Origin: a virus
Direction: 5' to 3' (one strand)
DNA length: 37,617 nt
IMG/VR virus record: IMGVR_UViG_3300027232_000011
Coordinates: 1 to 37,617 of that record
In this document: positions 9,701 through 37,351 of the stretch, piece by piece
How positions within the stretch are numbered: position 1 is the stretch's first letter
Layout of the letters: every line of letters begins with the position of its first letter
Position numbers and translations under genes: made by a program
The notes under the pieces: generated by a model
What the model saw: only the letters and a program-made list of their open reading frames with translations
The model's database searches: none
What the model was told of the DNA's origin: nothing

Positions 9701-11151
9701 AATCCAACAATGTTATAAGAGCCGCCACCTTGAAATGCATCAAAAACAATATTTTGCGATGGCAATGGAAAAGCATAGTTCTTACCATTTCCATAGTTTC
9801 TAGTAACTACAGCTGCATACCAAAACCCACTTAAGTCTTCTCTTATTGCTAACAAGTAAGGAGTTAGCGAATACATTATTTTACTAAAGCTAGTGGTTGC
9901 TGTATTCTGAGTTAATGTAATATCTATTGCGGTTGCAGGCGTGTCATACCCTTCTAAGTTGTTAGCTAGAAACAATCTATTAGACGTGAACTCTAATGAC
10001 TGAGAAGTAATAGGTATTGAATCAAAAGCTTTTGCGCAATATGCAGGATCTAAAGTTTCTACAATAATAGATCCATCATAGTTCTGCACTGTTATGTACG
10101 GAACTAAAAATGGACTTGTATTGTGTTCGTAAACTAATTGAGCGTCTGTGTAATAAACAGGACCCATACCAAAATTGTATTCTCTGGAAGTTGTATCGTA
10201 TTTATCAAAGGTTCTAATTACATCGAATGTATTAGTGTCTAAATACCTCATAACAAAATCAACCTTCTTCCAATTGTCTGGTATTTTTTGATCTTTACTT
10301 AAACTAATTGTTATAACATTTCCAAAGAATGGATCAACTTCAACTTCTTCTTGTCTTGCAGGAAGTGATGTTATACTGAACGGAGATAAAACAGAAATGA
10401 ATCCATCTTCATTCAATATTCTATACATAAACTGAACAGCCTTGAATTGTAATGTAGCTGCCTTTGTTGGATCAGATCCTCTATCTGCAATCAATGGAAC
10501 AACCCCAGGCTCTGTAATTAAAGACAACTCATTAAGAGTTGGATTGTTGGTTAAGTAATCTTTATTAACATCAACATATCTAACAGGGTTATGACCATCA
10601 GTAAATATTAATTGACTTCCACTTGTTCTAGCAGATATAAAGTATTCAGGCTGAAATGCTAAATTATCAGAAGCAGGGCCTAATACCCAAAATCCACTTA
10701 AAAGAACTGAAGAGTCAGCTATTGATATTGTATTTACTTTAGTTGTGGCATTGTATTTAATAGCGACTTTTACTATCCAAGAGTTTTCTAAAGTAGTGCT
10801 AAAAGCAGGAGTGTATATAAATAAGTAAAAAAACCTTGTGTTATTACTTATGGATTCGGTATCATCTACTGCGTAACCTATACACTTAGCGCCATTCTGA
10901 TTGTAACCAGTAACGCCTAATGTAGAGAATAAAGTAGTCCAATCTGTATTGCCAGCAAATGGCTCTAGAACCCCTAGATCACCTCCAATATTATATCCAC
11001 TCATATCTCCACTCTGACCATCGCTTACGCCCAATAAAGAGCCTAAAGAGAAATGGACATTCATAGCAGAAGAATACGACTCCTTCTCTTGCAAGTGGGG
11101 AGCCGTATCAGTATCTAAACCTTTTGTAAAAAGTTTTGTTATTTGAGCCAT
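6796..11151 (-). CDS. Muzzle / tail stabilization protein (crAss-like)
   Basis: 1451 residues and the last gene of the tail operon. Residues 183-195 carry FTDGHNPVRYVDV, the TDG-x-N-x-x-R motif I know from crAss-like muzzle ('stabilization') proteins. Size and position next to the ring proteins and fibres also fit. In phages of this type the muzzle closes the distal end of the short tail, like the nozzle of T7. Near the C-terminus (about residues 1330-1400) two copies of a GSGY-x-x-AP / GTGY-x-x-TP module are separated by a Gly/Ala/Val-rich stretch, a small beta repeat common in phage tail proteins. There is no GCGTATTATAT motif upstream; the 16-base gap to the fibre gene suggests co-transcription. 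Family assignment is by motif and context, without a search. Confidence 0.75.
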   Translation of the reverse strand: MAQITKLFTKGLDTDTAPHLQEKESYSSAMNVHFSLGSLLGVSDGQSGDMSGYNIGGDLGVLEPFAGNTDWTTLFSTLGVTGYNQNGAKCIGYAVDDTESISNNTRFFYLFIYTPAFSTTLENSWIVKVAIKYNATTKVNTISIADSSVLLSGFWVLGPASDNLAFQPEYFISARTSGSQLIFTDGHNPVRYVDVNKDYLTNNPTLNELSLITEPGVVPLIADRGSDPTKAATLQFKAVQFMYRILNEDGFISVLSPFSITSLPARQEEVEVDPFFGNVITISLSKDQKIPDNWKKVDFVMRYLDTNTFDVIRTFDKYDTTSREYNFGMGPVYYTDAQLVYEHNTSPFLVPYITVQNYDGSIIVETLDPAYCAKAFDSIPITSQSLEFTSNRLFLANNLEGYDTPATAIDITLTQNTATTSFSKIMYSLTPYLLAIREDLSGFWYAAVVTRNYGNGKNYAFPLPSQNIVFDAFQGGGSYNIVGLKSTDYTFISLPQTISEDSLIELSESENFDPLRVSSPSGGQRNARVRIISELNEHWGQKSLYSSLGTNNICVPLYNIGTFSFIITPNMCKVFSPSGYLNNTLNSRKAAFLPSSTYSYGATFYDEALRKSGNKYIGDITIGSYNAGTKTLVESIDVNVTGVQPSGSVPSWAKYYSINLTNNNKASSFLQFVPDIIRFAYKSSAGIIVYDQDEASPIGDYYGVAVPLTSLSDRSQGYAYTEGDLCQFEIYDYNTSTYNGSYTLPVITSIDGYIIVNSPKSNFNNYISYQGKKVQYTSASGSTVNTFVNDFLNDPALITNPKVGDVFLIGNAPVGAWAGQSGFVVYSNSGTWDFSSYAVPYTVVYSYGEYSGTAQYLSVSAGIWTPSGSPSVQYYAYAPAQLNQQVFICTLYTPKTVQRSFYEVAFFGEVSGGSLLAPYNGLSAKLYGDTYIQGSNSEGGAFNVVSKTNNENRYNYWIENSGRITPEDTVGQKGLTNQIRWSNVKIPNSSVNGLSSFDALDVADVDSNAGPITSIILSSKEANLASRLVILCNSGSFIGLIGQAQIYSQDQSTAFLSSAPVLGTIQPITGQWGCISPQGVISYKGMVFWADALNREIIQLAGDGATPISQQKAGFLWNQVFRNLPFDESAISAKNIKIGINPYTSEVFITCPAPNITPTQFPANCGENRLNQYIGDKKVSYVYNYQLNRWVGAYEDNPDQWIRVGDDVFTVGSQYLNNGLNLYKEFDSTPGDFNQSANPSCYISFPISEGYPATIEPLSVILMGQLTTTKTVVYARDSSTSVNNNLTQVTCWNDSNYATREGEKFAPVLRNRLSNNANQSQVLSISPISLGSGYLTAPSVAIGPPDVAGGTQAVAVSIINTAGEVIGYTITNPGTGYTITPAISVGVPPSGGTQATASISVGVAANNTYDYQGIKGDRIRSKTPWVQVTFPAEQQINFQGARLEVKPSSGH

Positions 11152-11167
11152 TAAAAAGCTTTATATA

Positions 11168-13066
11168 TTATTGATATAATTGTATCCATCTGTCACCTAA
11201 GCCATCTACTCTTACTCTTATAAATTCAGCAGGAGCTGGCGGAGCAGGTGTATCTACAAAGTCTTGAGTCATAACTATTGAAGGAGTAGCACCACCTGTA
11301 CCTCTTGCGCCAAAGTAAGAAGCATTTGCAGGAGTTTCCACATCTGTACCGAATACAAACTCATTGCCAGCTACATCTAAAAATATACCTGTAGTTAAAC
11401 CAGCCACTTTAGTTTTAACATTACCTGTAGTAGAATCTACTTCCAAACCTGTGGTTAACGTACCTAAATTAGCGATATTACTTGAGATTATTAACCCTGT
11501 ATTTGATACATAGTTTCCTAATTTAAACACGTCAGTAGATGTATTGATATATAAACCTTCAATATTAGTACCTAAAGTATAAGTATTTGAAGTTGTATTT
11601 ACAACCAATGCTTTTAATCCATTACCTAAGTAGTAAGTATTATTTACTAAGTCAATGTATAATCCAGTACCAGCAGACGAATTTCCAAGTTTAAATATTT
11701 GACTTGCTGCATTTATATTTAATTCAAGATTGCTTCCTGCAAAACCTAATTGGTAAGTTTGGTTATTAGTATCTATGAATAAACCTTTTGTAGAATATTC
11801 TCCTAGTTTATACAAGTTACTATTGATATTTACAGATAACCCTTTTGTTGTAATACCAACACTAGCTGTGTTAGCAGTATCATCAAGAGTTAAATTGATT
11901 GAACTATTACCAGCAATCATTGTTGTTGCAGTATAGTTATAACCAAATGTTGCAGAACCAAGTCTACCTGTTGTAGCAGTTAATGATAAACCATATCCTG
12001 CAAAAGTACCTAATATATAAGTTTCTGCTGCTAAATTTATAAATAAACCTTTACCAACTGTTTGGTTTGCTAAATTATATATGTCACCAGCTGCGTTATT
12101 GTATACATAAAGCCCATTTCCTGAAGATAATGAACCTAAATTTATAGTAGCAGCTAACGGTACTGAATAGTCAATTTTTAACCCATAAGTTGGTGTTCCT
12201 AATGTGTAATCATCAGTAGTTAAATCAACAAACAAACCTTTTGTTGCGTCTCCTAAACTTGCTACGTTAGCAGTATCATTAAGAGATAAATTAATTGAAC
12301 CATTACCTGCGAATAATGATGTAGCGTTATAATTATATGCCCAAGTAGATGTACCTAAATAACCATTAGATGCATTTATCACAACACCTTCGCTTGTAGA
12401 TGTGTTACCTAACTTAGAAACAGTATTTGCTGTATCAACAGACAAACCCTTGTTTGCATCAATATCTCCAATCTTGTGAATATTGTTAGCAAAGTCTAAT
12501 TTGATACCTTTGTTAGCAGTAGCTTTTTTACTGTTAATTACTTGGTTTTTATCATCTATTGTAAGTATAACATCGTTACCTACTGAGTCAGTATCACCAC
12601 ATTGAAAGTAAGGACCAGTAGTAGTAGATTTGTTTGCTACAAAACTACCACCTACCATTTTAATTTCGTCAGTAGTACGTTGCAAATAACTTGCTACTAA
12701 GCTAGAACCATTACTGTATGGTATGAAACCAGCTGGGATAACAGAAGCAACACCAAACTCAATTAAGTTCCAGTATCCATTGCTTCCTGCTGGGAAGTTA
12801 ATAGTTGACTCTTGGGTTAAACTCCAGTAGTAAATACCATTGTCAGAAACAGTTGCATCGCTTGTAACAAATGCTAATTGTGAGTCATCATTTGTAACAC
12901 CTGCTAATGAGTTTGTAGTAGCAACAACTTGAATAGCATTTTGAGAGAACAAATATTCTACTTCTTGTTGTATTCCTTTTAAAGAAGTATCTGTCCACTC
13001 AATCTTTCCAGATGTTGTGCTTTTTGCGTTAGCAATTAAGTTTGTTAAATTATTTAAAGTTGCCAT
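11168..13066 (-). CDS. Beta-solenoid tail fibre with ~20-residue repeats
   Basis: 632 residues. Residues 1-105 are homologous to the N-termini of the 172- and 999-residue neighbours (IQ-x-x-V near residue 33, GYWNLIEFG near 97), so this is a shared tail-attachment domain. Residues about 186-575 consist of some 19 units of 16-30 residues with the pattern GL-x-[IV]-[DN]-x(4-6)-Y-x-LG, as in KGLFIDTNNQTYQLG. These should stack as a trimeric beta-helix shaft. A stretch of about 56 residues at 235 recurs at 367 with 32 identities. The last 60 residues (PAPPAPAEFIRVRVDG..RWIQLYQ) form a small tip. It probably helps recognise the host surface. Confidence 0.8.
   Translation of the reverse strand: MATLNNLTNLIANAKSTTSGKIEWTDTSLKGIQQEVEYLFSQNAIQVVATTNSLAGVTNDDSQLAFVTSDATVSDNGIYYWSLTQESTINFPAGSNGYWNLIEFGVASVIPAGFIPYSNGSSLVASYLQRTTDEIKMVGGSFVANKSTTTGPYFQCGDTDSVGNDVILTIDDKNQVINSKKATANKGIKLDFANNIHKIGDIDANKGLSVDTANTVSKLGNTSTSEGVVINASNGYLGTSTWAYNYNATSLFAGNGSINLSLNDTANVASLGDATKGLFVDLTTDDYTLGTPTYGLKIDYSVPLAATINLGSLSSGNGLYVYNNAAGDIYNLANQTVGKGLFINLAAETYILGTFAGYGLSLTATTGRLGSATFGYNYTATTMIAGNSSINLTLDDTANTASVGITTKGLSVNINSNLYKLGEYSTKGLFIDTNNQTYQLGFAGSNLELNINAASQIFKLGNSSAGTGLYIDLVNNTYYLGNGLKALVVNTTSNTYTLGTNIEGLYINTSTDVFKLGNYVSNTGLIISSNIANLGTLTTGLEVDSTTGNVKTKVAGLTTGIFLDVAGNEFVFGTDVETPANASYFGARGTGGATPSIVMTQDFVDTPAPPAPAEFIRVRVDGLGDRWIQLYQ
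11342..12511 (-). repeat. Coding tandem repeats of the solenoid fibre
   Basis: This is the DNA for the roughly 19 GL-x-[IV]-[DN]...Y-x-LG units. A larger duplication is visible in it: 12197-12364 and 11801-11968 encode related 56-residue blocks with a constant offset of 396 bases. Short and long duplications together suggest growth by unequal recombination. Confidence 0.7.
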
Positions 13067-13075
13067 ATTTTAATT

Positions 13076-13594
13076 TTATAATGTGTGAACTACGTCTGAT
13101 GGATCTTTGTATTTTAAAACTCCAGCTTGAGCATATAAAACAATACCTGCTGATGGAGCAGATGGAACTGTAGTTACATTTGGTAGATATAAAGGACTTT
13201 GTACTTTTAATACTCCGTCTTTAGCATATACATTTACCCCTCCTGTAGGAGCGGCTAAATCAGTTCCCACATTTGGAAAAAAGTTTCCAATAGCTTGCAA
13301 TTTCCAAAAACCACCATCGTTTGCCATCAAAACATTGCTACCATTTGCTGGGCCACTTCCTGGAGGAAACCAAGTATAAACACCAACTCCTTGAACAATT
13401 GCATTTTGAGAATTGTTTTTACCTTGAGCGTTTAAATCAGTAACCGTAGGCACTACAATACAGCCACGTGCCCTGATCTCCTCAACGATATCGTCTTGGA
13501 TTATTTTCAATCCATTAGTGCCAGACCAGCTCACCGTATTATTAGGTGTCTGATCGGCATTAAAGATTTTATTAAGTAAGTTTGTAATAAACAT
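13076..13594 (-). CDS. Short tail fibre / adaptor sharing the anchor domain
   Basis: 172 residues. Residues 1-103 closely resemble the start of the 999-residue fibre: both have NKIF, NNTVSWSG-x-NGLK, IQ-[ED]-DIV and ANDGG at matching places. The remaining 70 residues contain two copies of an AP-[ST]-[GA]-G-[VI]-x-[VL]-YA-x-x-GVLK unit, ending in a VVHTL tip typical of short phage fibres. A GCGTATTATAT motif lies 17 bases before the ATG, so it begins a transcript that can continue into the solenoid fibre and muzzle. It may be an adaptor that competes for or extends the same binding site as the long fibres; that is inference. Confidence 0.75.
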   Translation of the reverse strand: MFITNLLNKIFNADQTPNNTVSWSGTNGLKIIQDDIVEEIRARGCIVVPTVTDLNAQGKNNSQNAIVQGVGVYTWFPPGSGPANGSNVLMANDGGFWKLQAIGNFFPNVGTDLAAPTGGVNVYAKDGVLKVQSPLYLPNVTTVPSAPSAGIVLYAQAGVLKYKDPSDVVHTL

Positions 13595-35030: not shown

Positions 35031-35034
35031 AATA

Positions 35035-35064
35035 CAAAGGTAGGAGTATTCTAGGAGAATACAA
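35035..35064 (-). promoter_or_regulatory. Host-type promoter of the RepL-like gene with internal operator
   Basis: On the minus strand: TTG (35064-35062), 19-base spacer, TACCTTTG (35042-35035), then TATT and the ATG. Within the spacer GTATTC (35046-35051) and GAATAC (35057-35062) form an inverted repeat with a 5-base centre. A bound protein there would block RNA polymerase. Confidence 0.55.
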
Positions 35065-35249
35065 AATATATCTTTTTGGAAATACCATAGGTATTGACAA
35101 TCATAGAGTTATAACACCTTCCTTCTTATATAATAAGATACACCCTATATATAACCAATAATAATGAGGCCTTCCAAAGGCCGAACTTATGGCTAAATAC
35201 AGGCGGATCATACGCATAAGCATATAAAATTGGGACATAGTGTGTTACT

Positions 35250-35291
35250 GGGGTTATAGGGGGGATAGGGGGGCTAGCTTTCTCTAGGGGG
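35250..35291 (+). other. Four G runs, possible G-quadruplex
   Basis: Runs of 4, 6, 6 and 5 G at 35250-35253, 35259-35264, 35268-35273 and 35287-35291, with loops of 5, 3 and 13 bases. This is exceptional in such AT-rich DNA. It is noncoding. Confidence 0.55.
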
Positions 35292-35348
35292 ATTCTCGTT
35301 TCTCCGAGTGGGTAGGTATGGCTATATGAAAGTTTTTTTACTATGAGT

Positions 35349-35414
35349 TATGTAGGCTACTTGAAGTATTACTTTAGGTATACTATGTAGGTTACTTGAA
35401 GCTTTACTTTAGGT
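35349..35414. repeat. Tandem 35-base direct repeats
   Basis: 35349-35379 and 35384-35414 match at 28 of 31 positions (TATGTAGG, TACTTGAAG and TACTTTAGGT are conserved). A partial third copy, TATGTAGGTA, begins at about 35427. The period is 35 bases, so copies lie more than three helical turns apart. They are iteron-like. Confidence 0.65.
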
Positions 35415-35586
35415 CACTACCCTGCATATGTAGGTAAATTGGAAAGCCTAGCTTAAGGTGAATTTTATTTTTATTGTGGTGTAATAAATTTGTTTAGGTA
35501 GTAAGGAAAAACAAGGGACTACCTCCCTCCCCTTTTTACCTTCCGACTCCATCTGATTCCATCATCATCACCTAGGTAAATTTACA

Positions 35587-35923
35587 CCTGTTTACCCTGT
35601 TTTGTTTGGCTGTATTTTACACACAGGTTGCGATACTGGTATGCGTTAAGGAAATGTTAAAATTCGGCTGTAACTCAAGCCTGTATTGGTTTAGACAACT
35701 GCCTGCCTGTTTCTCAAAATTGCCCCTTTTTTGCCATTTGGCGTGTGTTTTGATATTATCATTTTATATATATATCTTCCCTGTATGCAAGGTTGCCCCT
35801 GTTACCTGTATATATGTTCACCTGTATACCTGTATTAAAATAACCATTTAGTATATCCTGTTTCTTATCCTGTTATTGTATTACCTGTTCGCTTCCTGTT
35901 GCATATGTTTTTATCCATCCTGT
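35587..35923. repeat. CCTGT word array
   Basis: CCTGT begins at 35587, 35596, 35680, 35706, 35780, 35798, 35805, 35821, 35829, 35857, 35869, 35884, 35895 and 35919, all on the plus strand, with one inverted copy (ACAGG, 35623). Several are extended to ACCTGT or ATCCTGT. Spacing is irregular, 7 to 84 bases. Confidence 0.75.
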
Positions 35924-36052
35924 AATTATTTTACCTTTTATCTAAAATTATTTTAAACTTTTTTTGAACATCAGGACGGCTGATTCCATTGGGCTAGATG
36001 CTCATTATAAGTTTTATCTATAATTGATATAGAAAATAAGTATAGGAAATAT

Positions 36053-36083
36053 TTGGAAATTGTTTTTTCCCGTTGTATGTTTG
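36053..36083 (+). promoter_or_regulatory. Host-type promoter of the right-hand gene block
   Basis: TTG (36053-36055), a 20-base spacer and TATGTTTG (36076-36083) match the Bacteroidota -33/-7 consensus. The leader to the ATG at 36128 is about 40 bases. Confidence 0.65.
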
Positions 36084-36127
36084 CATTATCAAATTAATTA
36101 ATCATTTAACCAATTAAACTTTAAACT

Positions 36128-36490
36128 ATGAAAAACGAATTAACAATCAACGGAATGCAAAATTTATTAGGAAAGAATATGGATTCATTCATTAACTTAT
36201 TCTTTTATAAACCTATTCAGCTACAAGAAGGATGGCAAATGGTATTAAATTCAAGTAAATTTAAAAACATAGGTGATTGCACGCTAATACAAGAGAAAGA
36301 TAATAAAGACAACCTTACTATATATTCTTGCGAATTGTATATTGGTGACAGAAAAGGCACAATAGAGAATCCGTTTGGTTATGTGCTTGCTTTTATTCAA
36401 AATGTATTTGGTGCAAATTATGCTGGATGGGGAAAAATTAATAAAGATGGGAAATCTTTCGAAATTACAATTGTACATATTAACGAATAA
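36128..36490 (+). CDS. Early-type protein of unknown function
   Basis: 120 residues, soluble, of mixed charge. It contains FFYKPIQLQEGWQMVLNSSK, YSCELYIGDRKG and a Gly/Trp-containing AGWGKINKDGKSFEITIVH end that looks like beta strands. The leader before the ATG is TTTAAACT, shared with the following genes. It has a good host-type promoter, so it may be expressed early. I recognise no family. Confidence 0.7.
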   Translation: MKNELTINGMQNLLGKNMDSFINLFFYKPIQLQEGWQMVLNSSKFKNIGDCTLIQEKDNKDNLTIYSCELYIGDRKGTIENPFGYVLAFIQNVFGANYAGWGKINKDGKSFEITIVHINE

Positions 36491-37066: not shown

Positions 37067-37351
37067 ATGAAAACTAAAATTGAATTTACAAGTAACTACG
37101 GCTTCGACCACAATTGGATATTAGTATGCGAAACGCCTAAACAAAAAAGAGCCTTTTATCTAGGGCAAGATGTAAAGTTTTGCAATAGGGTTCTAGGTCT
37201 AACGCCTAGAGACATAGTGGAAGCTATAGGAACTAGAGAGATAACGACTAAGCAAGGCAATATTAAGCTAGCTAAGTTTATATGTAAACAACTAGGTATA
37301 AACGGAAAGAATATGCATAAGCTACAAGATTGGAGCATATGCGCTGAATAG
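37067..37351 (+). CDS. Conserved-looking small early protein
   Basis: 94 residues. KRAFYLGQDVKFCNRVLGLT, followed by IVEAIGTREI, KLAKFICKQLGING and LQDWSICAE, recalls a small protein family of Bacteroidota phages with a helical core (FYLGQD-x-K-x-C-x-RVLG and a W-x-x-CA end). The role is unknown; the helical pattern would suit nucleic-acid or protein binding. It ends with TAG. The leader AACTTTATAACT before the ATG is a variant of the block's shared leader. Confidence 0.7.
   Translation: MKTKIEFTSNYGFDHNWILVCETPKQKRAFYLGQDVKFCNRVLGLTPRDIVEAIGTREITTKQGNIKLAKFICKQLGINGKNMHKLQDWSICAE

Follow-up and report, generated by a model that had tools for sequence, protein, structure and literature searches.

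A lineage-specific array of CCTGT words between the early and late genes of a predicted Bacteroidota phage, tentatively read as part of a replication origin

A dense array of the five-base word CCTGT, nearly all in one direction, lies between the early and late genes of a 37.6-kb IMG/VR virus record (here called the window, meaning the whole stretch analysed), and is confined to one phage lineage. We tentatively interpret the array as a lineage-specific, fast-turning platform of many protein-binding sites, most likely part of a replication origin, an interpretation which we regard as possible rather than probable. Judged from its sequence, the window is a fragment of a podovirus, distant kin of the Flavobacterium elemoviruses, and a Bacteroidota-infecting phage. 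Its large terminase is ~29-31% identical to those of Flavobacterium elemoviruses and Cellulophaga phages, and it follows the genome plan of these phages, with late structural genes on one strand and early genes on the opposite strand. The array sits in the divergent intergenic region of ~1.1 kb which separates these two units, with repL adjoining (Table 1).

Table 1. Features of the intergenic region and its borders, in window coordinates
Feature	Coordinates	Strand	Remarks
RepL-family replication protein, 145 aa	34593..35030	-	PF05732, E 1.3e-7
repL promoter-like site TTTG...TACCTTTG (TACCTTTG at 35042), with palindrome GTATTCNNNNNGAATAC	35035..35065	-	
Two 31-bp direct repeats TATGTAGGYTACTTGAAGNWTTACTTTAGGT (TATGTAGGYTACTTGAAG..TTACTTTAGGT)	35349..35414		Similar repeats in both nearest relatives
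Bidirectional terminator-like hairpin, left edge of block	35514..35528		Similar one in both nearest relatives, by eye
Non-aligning array block, an island between conserved flanks	35541..35923		Counterparts of 184 and 166 bp in nearest relatives
CCTGT word array	35587..35923	+	14 plus-strand and 1 minus-strand copies, spacing irregular
AT-rich tract TTTTGATATTATCATTTTATATATATATCTT within array	35745..35778		Candidate unwinding element, inferred from sequence
Densest part of array	35780..35923	+	10 words in 144 bp, CCTGT at both ends
Early promoter-like site, TATGTTTG at 36076	36055..36085	+	Kept in relatives
120-aa ORF, first early gene	36128..36490	+	Not in L005 or L006

The original prediction counted 14 plus-strand copies and one inverted copy of CCTGT in 337 bases, and this count is exact: plus-strand words start at 35587, 35596, 35680, 35706, 35780, 35798, 35805, 35821, 35829, 35857, 35869, 35884, 35895 and 35919, and the sole minus-strand word within 35587-35923 is at 35623. 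When the 337 bases were shuffled 3000 times with dinucleotides preserved, CCTGT occurred 1.29 times on average and at most 7 times, compared to the 14 observed; among complex 5-mers in general, the most frequent one averaged 4.3 copies and never exceeded 8, so 14 copies are extreme even if the word could be freely chosen. An earlier expectation of less than one copy was thus right as to over-representation but too low as a figure, the dinucleotide-aware value being ~1.3 because the array is locally T-rich. Among all 5-mers in the window, CCTGT ranks first in over-representation (13-14 observed, ~0.4 expected). Outside the array, 35 plus-strand and 23 minus-strand copies are spread across the whole window with no more than 5 per 337 bases on a single strand.

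Successive plus-strand words start 9, 84, 26, 74, 18, 7, 16, 8, 28, 12, 15, 11 and 24 bases apart, and showed no helical phasing at 10, 10.5, 11 or 21 bp (at 10.5 bp, R = 0.11, p ~0.8). Tandem Repeats Finder reported only weak short stretches in the array. Both analyses agree with the predicted irregular spacing, and a tandem microsatellite was rejected as head-to-tail units of fixed period are absent. The flanks of the 14 copies have no strong base preference beyond the five core positions and no conserved longer unit. The extended motif CCTGTW was rejected: A or T follows each of the 14 words, yet it also follows most copies elsewhere in the window. Two word pairs recur in like context (CACCTGTTTACCCTGT and CACCTGTATACCTGT). 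The DNA had been described as gene-free, and indeed no substantial gene was found in the array; the early genes of relatives contain no homologue of a 65-81 aa frame that lies in the region.

RepL scored 31.7 bits against PF05732, for which the gathering score is 20.3, placing it in that family, and its closest plasmid relatives are of the pBI143 type (~32% identity). The palindrome at the repL promoter-like site is retained in L005, one of the two nearest divergent relatives. The array lies upstream of the early promoter, with a gap of ~130 bp between them. A GC-skew switch had been proposed as a check on the array, and the cumulative GC skew of the window does reach its minimum nearby, at 35175; skew also tracks gene strand and so gives no independent evidence of an origin. 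A further terminator-like hairpin, GGCCTTCCAAAGGCC, is present at 35168-35182, and by eye both sides of its stem differ in L005 and L006 (GGCCTCTCGAAGGCC, GCCCCCTCAAGGGGC).

Two contigs, L002 and L004, match the window identically through the array, and an exact-pattern scan of IMG/VR for further array-bearing lineages returned solely contigs identical to the window; no homologues of the array were found among phage or plasmid records. Of the divergent relatives, L005 (RepL 94% identical) and L006 (RepL 82% identical) are the nearest; they are ~90% and ~85% identical to the window in the nucleotides flanking the array and retain the promoters. Neither has an alignable counterpart of 35601-35900, and the densest part of the array corresponds in them to a few bases only (CCTATATTCA, in an alignment made partly by eye). 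There are no CCTGT words in the intergenic region of L005 and two in that of L006, just one of them near the block. The blocks of L005 and L006 align to each other with a score of 151 (shuffles ~50), while the window scores only 51 and 65 against them (shuffles ~48). Because the two relatives align well together and the window aligns weakly with both, the change occurred in the lineage of the window, either through an insertion and rapid local change or through replacement. The original prediction had looked to related phages for conserved words with drifting spacers, and had named loss of the words in close relatives as evidence against binding sites; it is the second pattern that was found, in an unalignable block with no CCTGT in L005 and one in L006. 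The 120-aa ORF is lineage-specific, as is the array.

RepL itself had been put forward as the binder of the words, but L005 has none of them even though the putative recognition region of its RepL hardly differs from that of the window (GWKTKGPFYKAVKGLIEA), so RepL is disfavoured as the direct reader. Relatives of RepL in bacterial genomes amounted to one distant match, in Paraburkholderia, and nothing comparable to the array is present in the RepL phages L109-L113. A DnaA domain IV protein of 129 aa, stand-alone and without an AAA+ domain (PF08299 match at G002:C1:6041-6241, minus strand), is encoded in the early region of the window lineage (L077; G002:C1:1-12300); it is 98% identical in L005 and 82% identical in L006 and is possibly a phage-borne DnaA-box binder. 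It retains the DHTT signature of DnaA, from which we presume that it would recognise canonical DnaA boxes. Both L005 and L006 carry TTACCCACA in the block corresponding to the array; no DnaA box (TTATCCACA-like) was found within one mismatch in window positions 35031-36127. An array of DnaA boxes was rejected on the absence of any near-consensus box from the window's intergenic region, and CCTGT is no DnaA box. Matches to PF08299 occur in 12 of 23 related records. Also encoded in L077 is a sigma factor (reverse-complement positions 10644-11498, Sigma70_r2 E 8.8e-8), which adjoins a Sak single-strand annealing protein. The relative G004, which looks complete as its contig ends have an 89-bp repeat in common, has a gene for a PriCT-1 primase fused to a DnaB helicase. 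Sequence comparison suggests that no conserved phage protein is an obvious reader of CCTGT, because L005 and L006 lack the words, yet compared with the window lineage their RepL is 94% and 82% identical and their DnaA domain IV protein 98% and 82% identical, respectively.

Twenty distant contigs have the small early gene at 37067-37351 in common with the window. RepL was not found in these contigs, and a scan of their non-coding DNA gave word arrays in about half. The word ATGACGAAA occurs with its inverse on opposite sides of an AT-rich core, in mirrored arrangement (AATATGACGAAA...TTTCGTCAT), in L053-L055, L057, L059 and L064 (at 5426-5775 in L053); ATGACG/TTGTCAT words, related to ATGACGAAA, occur in L060 and L061, and ATGTCGA words form a mirrored array around an AT-rich core in L063 and a weaker array in L062. 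The array of G035 (13191-13531) lies where strand blocks meet, with the circular GC-skew minimum (13785) 250 bases away; those of G032 and G038 are ~1-4 kb from the circular minimum, and in G004 the locus homologous to the array region is close to it. A layout of this kind, with words mirrored around an AT-rich core close to a skew minimum, resembles that of an origin, and it is mainly because distant relatives have such arrays that we favour an origin for the window. This support is by analogy, given the distance of these phages and the mirrored orientation of their arrays, compared to 14:1 in one direction here. The lack of regular iteron spacing also counts against an origin, and with only one small gene in common the mode of replication may differ between these phages and the window. 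The same scan also gave a dense array of near-palindromic AACAATGTT words in non-coding DNA of the larger, 170-kb contig L050 (151-525).

If the array is part of an origin, a sequence-specific DNA-binding protein (a phage initiator, an accessory factor or a host protein) would load onto the CCTGT words, which surround the AT-rich tract, and would help to open that tract, where the phage primase-helicase would then enter. The plan of a word array with an AT-rich tract near the early/late junction would be constant in the family, with the word itself changing between lineages. Also in favour of an origin are the short-word repeats upstream of repL in RepL-type plasmids, the DnaA domain IV protein of the lineage and the primase-helicase of G004. 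The predicted multi-site binding platform fits its setting of RepL, divergent units, skew minimum and arrays in relatives, but not in respect of conservation or of RepL as the binder. It was also proposed that the strand bias points to a process acting on one strand, but this need not follow, since in ordinary iterons too every copy has the same direction.

The array could instead control transcription, as an operator or enhancer at which a phage or host regulator sets the early/late switch; we consider this unlikely, if still worth serious attention. Divergent promoters (35042, minus strand; 36076, plus strand) bracket the region, the lineage encodes its own sigma factor, the adjoining 120-aa ORF is as lineage-specific as the array, and regulatory site arrays can turn over fast. 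However, 14 sites in 337 bp, with minimal spacing of 7-8 bp and no helical phasing, would be odd for an operator, and the promoters are conserved in relatives without the words.

A particular form of the origin reading, which we think distinctly unlikely, is that the origin word has been replaced from one close relative to another with little change in the replication proteins, and that the reader of CCTGT, acting on one strand, is the primase-helicase of the phage itself or a lineage-specific factor such as the adjacent 120-aa protein. Slightly less likely again is strand-specific priming or single-strand recognition, with CCTGT, or ACAGG on the opposite strand, as the start word of a phage primase or of a single-strand binding or annealing factor, so that one strand would offer many sites for priming. 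The 14:1 strand bias and the irregular, very short spacing would suit a small single-strand reader, and candidates exist in the PriCT-1 primase-helicase fusion of G004 and the Sak protein of the lineage, but L005, without the words, is expected to have the same replication genes, and a primase gene is absent from the examined contigs of the window's own lineage.

It is improbable that the array is a recent, largely neutral and functionless expansion, which slippage or recombination enlarged in situ or which was imported as a block. Its restriction to one lineage (the window and identical contigs), with near relatives lacking it, would be expected of such an expansion, as would the weak in-register traces of the relatives' sequence that persist in the block (local score with L006 of 65, compared to 47.5 +/- 6.7 in shuffles). 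The spacers are mutually unrelated, though, unlike the products of slippage, and 14 identical cores amid differing spacers suggest selection on the core.

A packaging or terminus signal, resembling the short-repeat arrays of T7-like podoviruses, seems very improbable in spite of the podovirus kinship, the short-word array in non-coding DNA and a contig (G005) which stops at ~35552, the left edge of the block: the window and two other contigs continue straight through, the terminase gene is >6 kb away, and the end of G005 could be a point where the assembly broke off in a variable block. We give equally little credence to an RNA-level array, in which repeated CCUGU or ACAGG in a transcript would act as a CsrB-like sponge for an RNA-binding protein, for while many copies of a short word lie on one strand and terminator-like hairpins flank the block, a hairpin (35514-35528) separates the array from the nearest rightward promoter match (35485), and structured RNA and CsrA/CsrB readings were rejected on folding at chance level for both strands (z -0.9 and -1.5), no match in Rfam, and only a minority of the words fitting GGA by reading ACAGGA on the minus strand.

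Should the array prove to belong to an origin, one would expect short-word arrays in related phages, with a word that differs between lineages and evolves faster than the replication proteins do, and the rewiring of origin recognition would become directly testable. It would also offer a compact and easily tested binding platform for Bacteroidota phages, whose replication origins are poorly known.

A literature search on T7 SRL, the origin of pBI143, DnaA domain IV encoded by phages and origins with pentanucleotides yielded nothing of use. The array is unlike CsrB-type sponge RNAs, lacking their stem-loop GGA pattern. T7-like podoviruses have SRL/SRR short-repeat arrays beside their terminal repeats, and both these and the window have a short C-rich word array in a podovirus, but word and spacing differ; apart from G005, which ends at the block edge, contigs read through the region. 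DnaA-box arrays would be in keeping with the DnaA domain IV protein of the lineage, yet the window's intergenic region has no such box. Iteron-type plasmid and phage origins likewise have many copies of one word, mostly in one direction, with a Rep gene near and an AT-rich tract, and the 14 same-direction words with RepL adjoining match their pattern of multiple direct copies near an initiator gene. Iterons are ~17-22 bp long, whereas the core here is 5 bp only with irregular, unphased spacing, and the words are gone in L005 though its RepL is 94% identical. Plasmids of the same RepL family have eight copies of a five-base word upstream of repL, GGAAA in pBI143 (L073, upstream of position 1567) and GTTGA in pES183-2 (L074, upstream of position 2653), as the window has words near repL, but theirs run in both directions and lie directly at repL, while the array here is ~560 bp away and runs in one. 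The ATGACGAAA and ATGTCGA arrays (L053, L063 and others) differ in being mirrored, in their word and in the lack of any RepL found in those records, but are likewise non-coding, with an AT-rich core, and near the early/late junction and the skew minimum.
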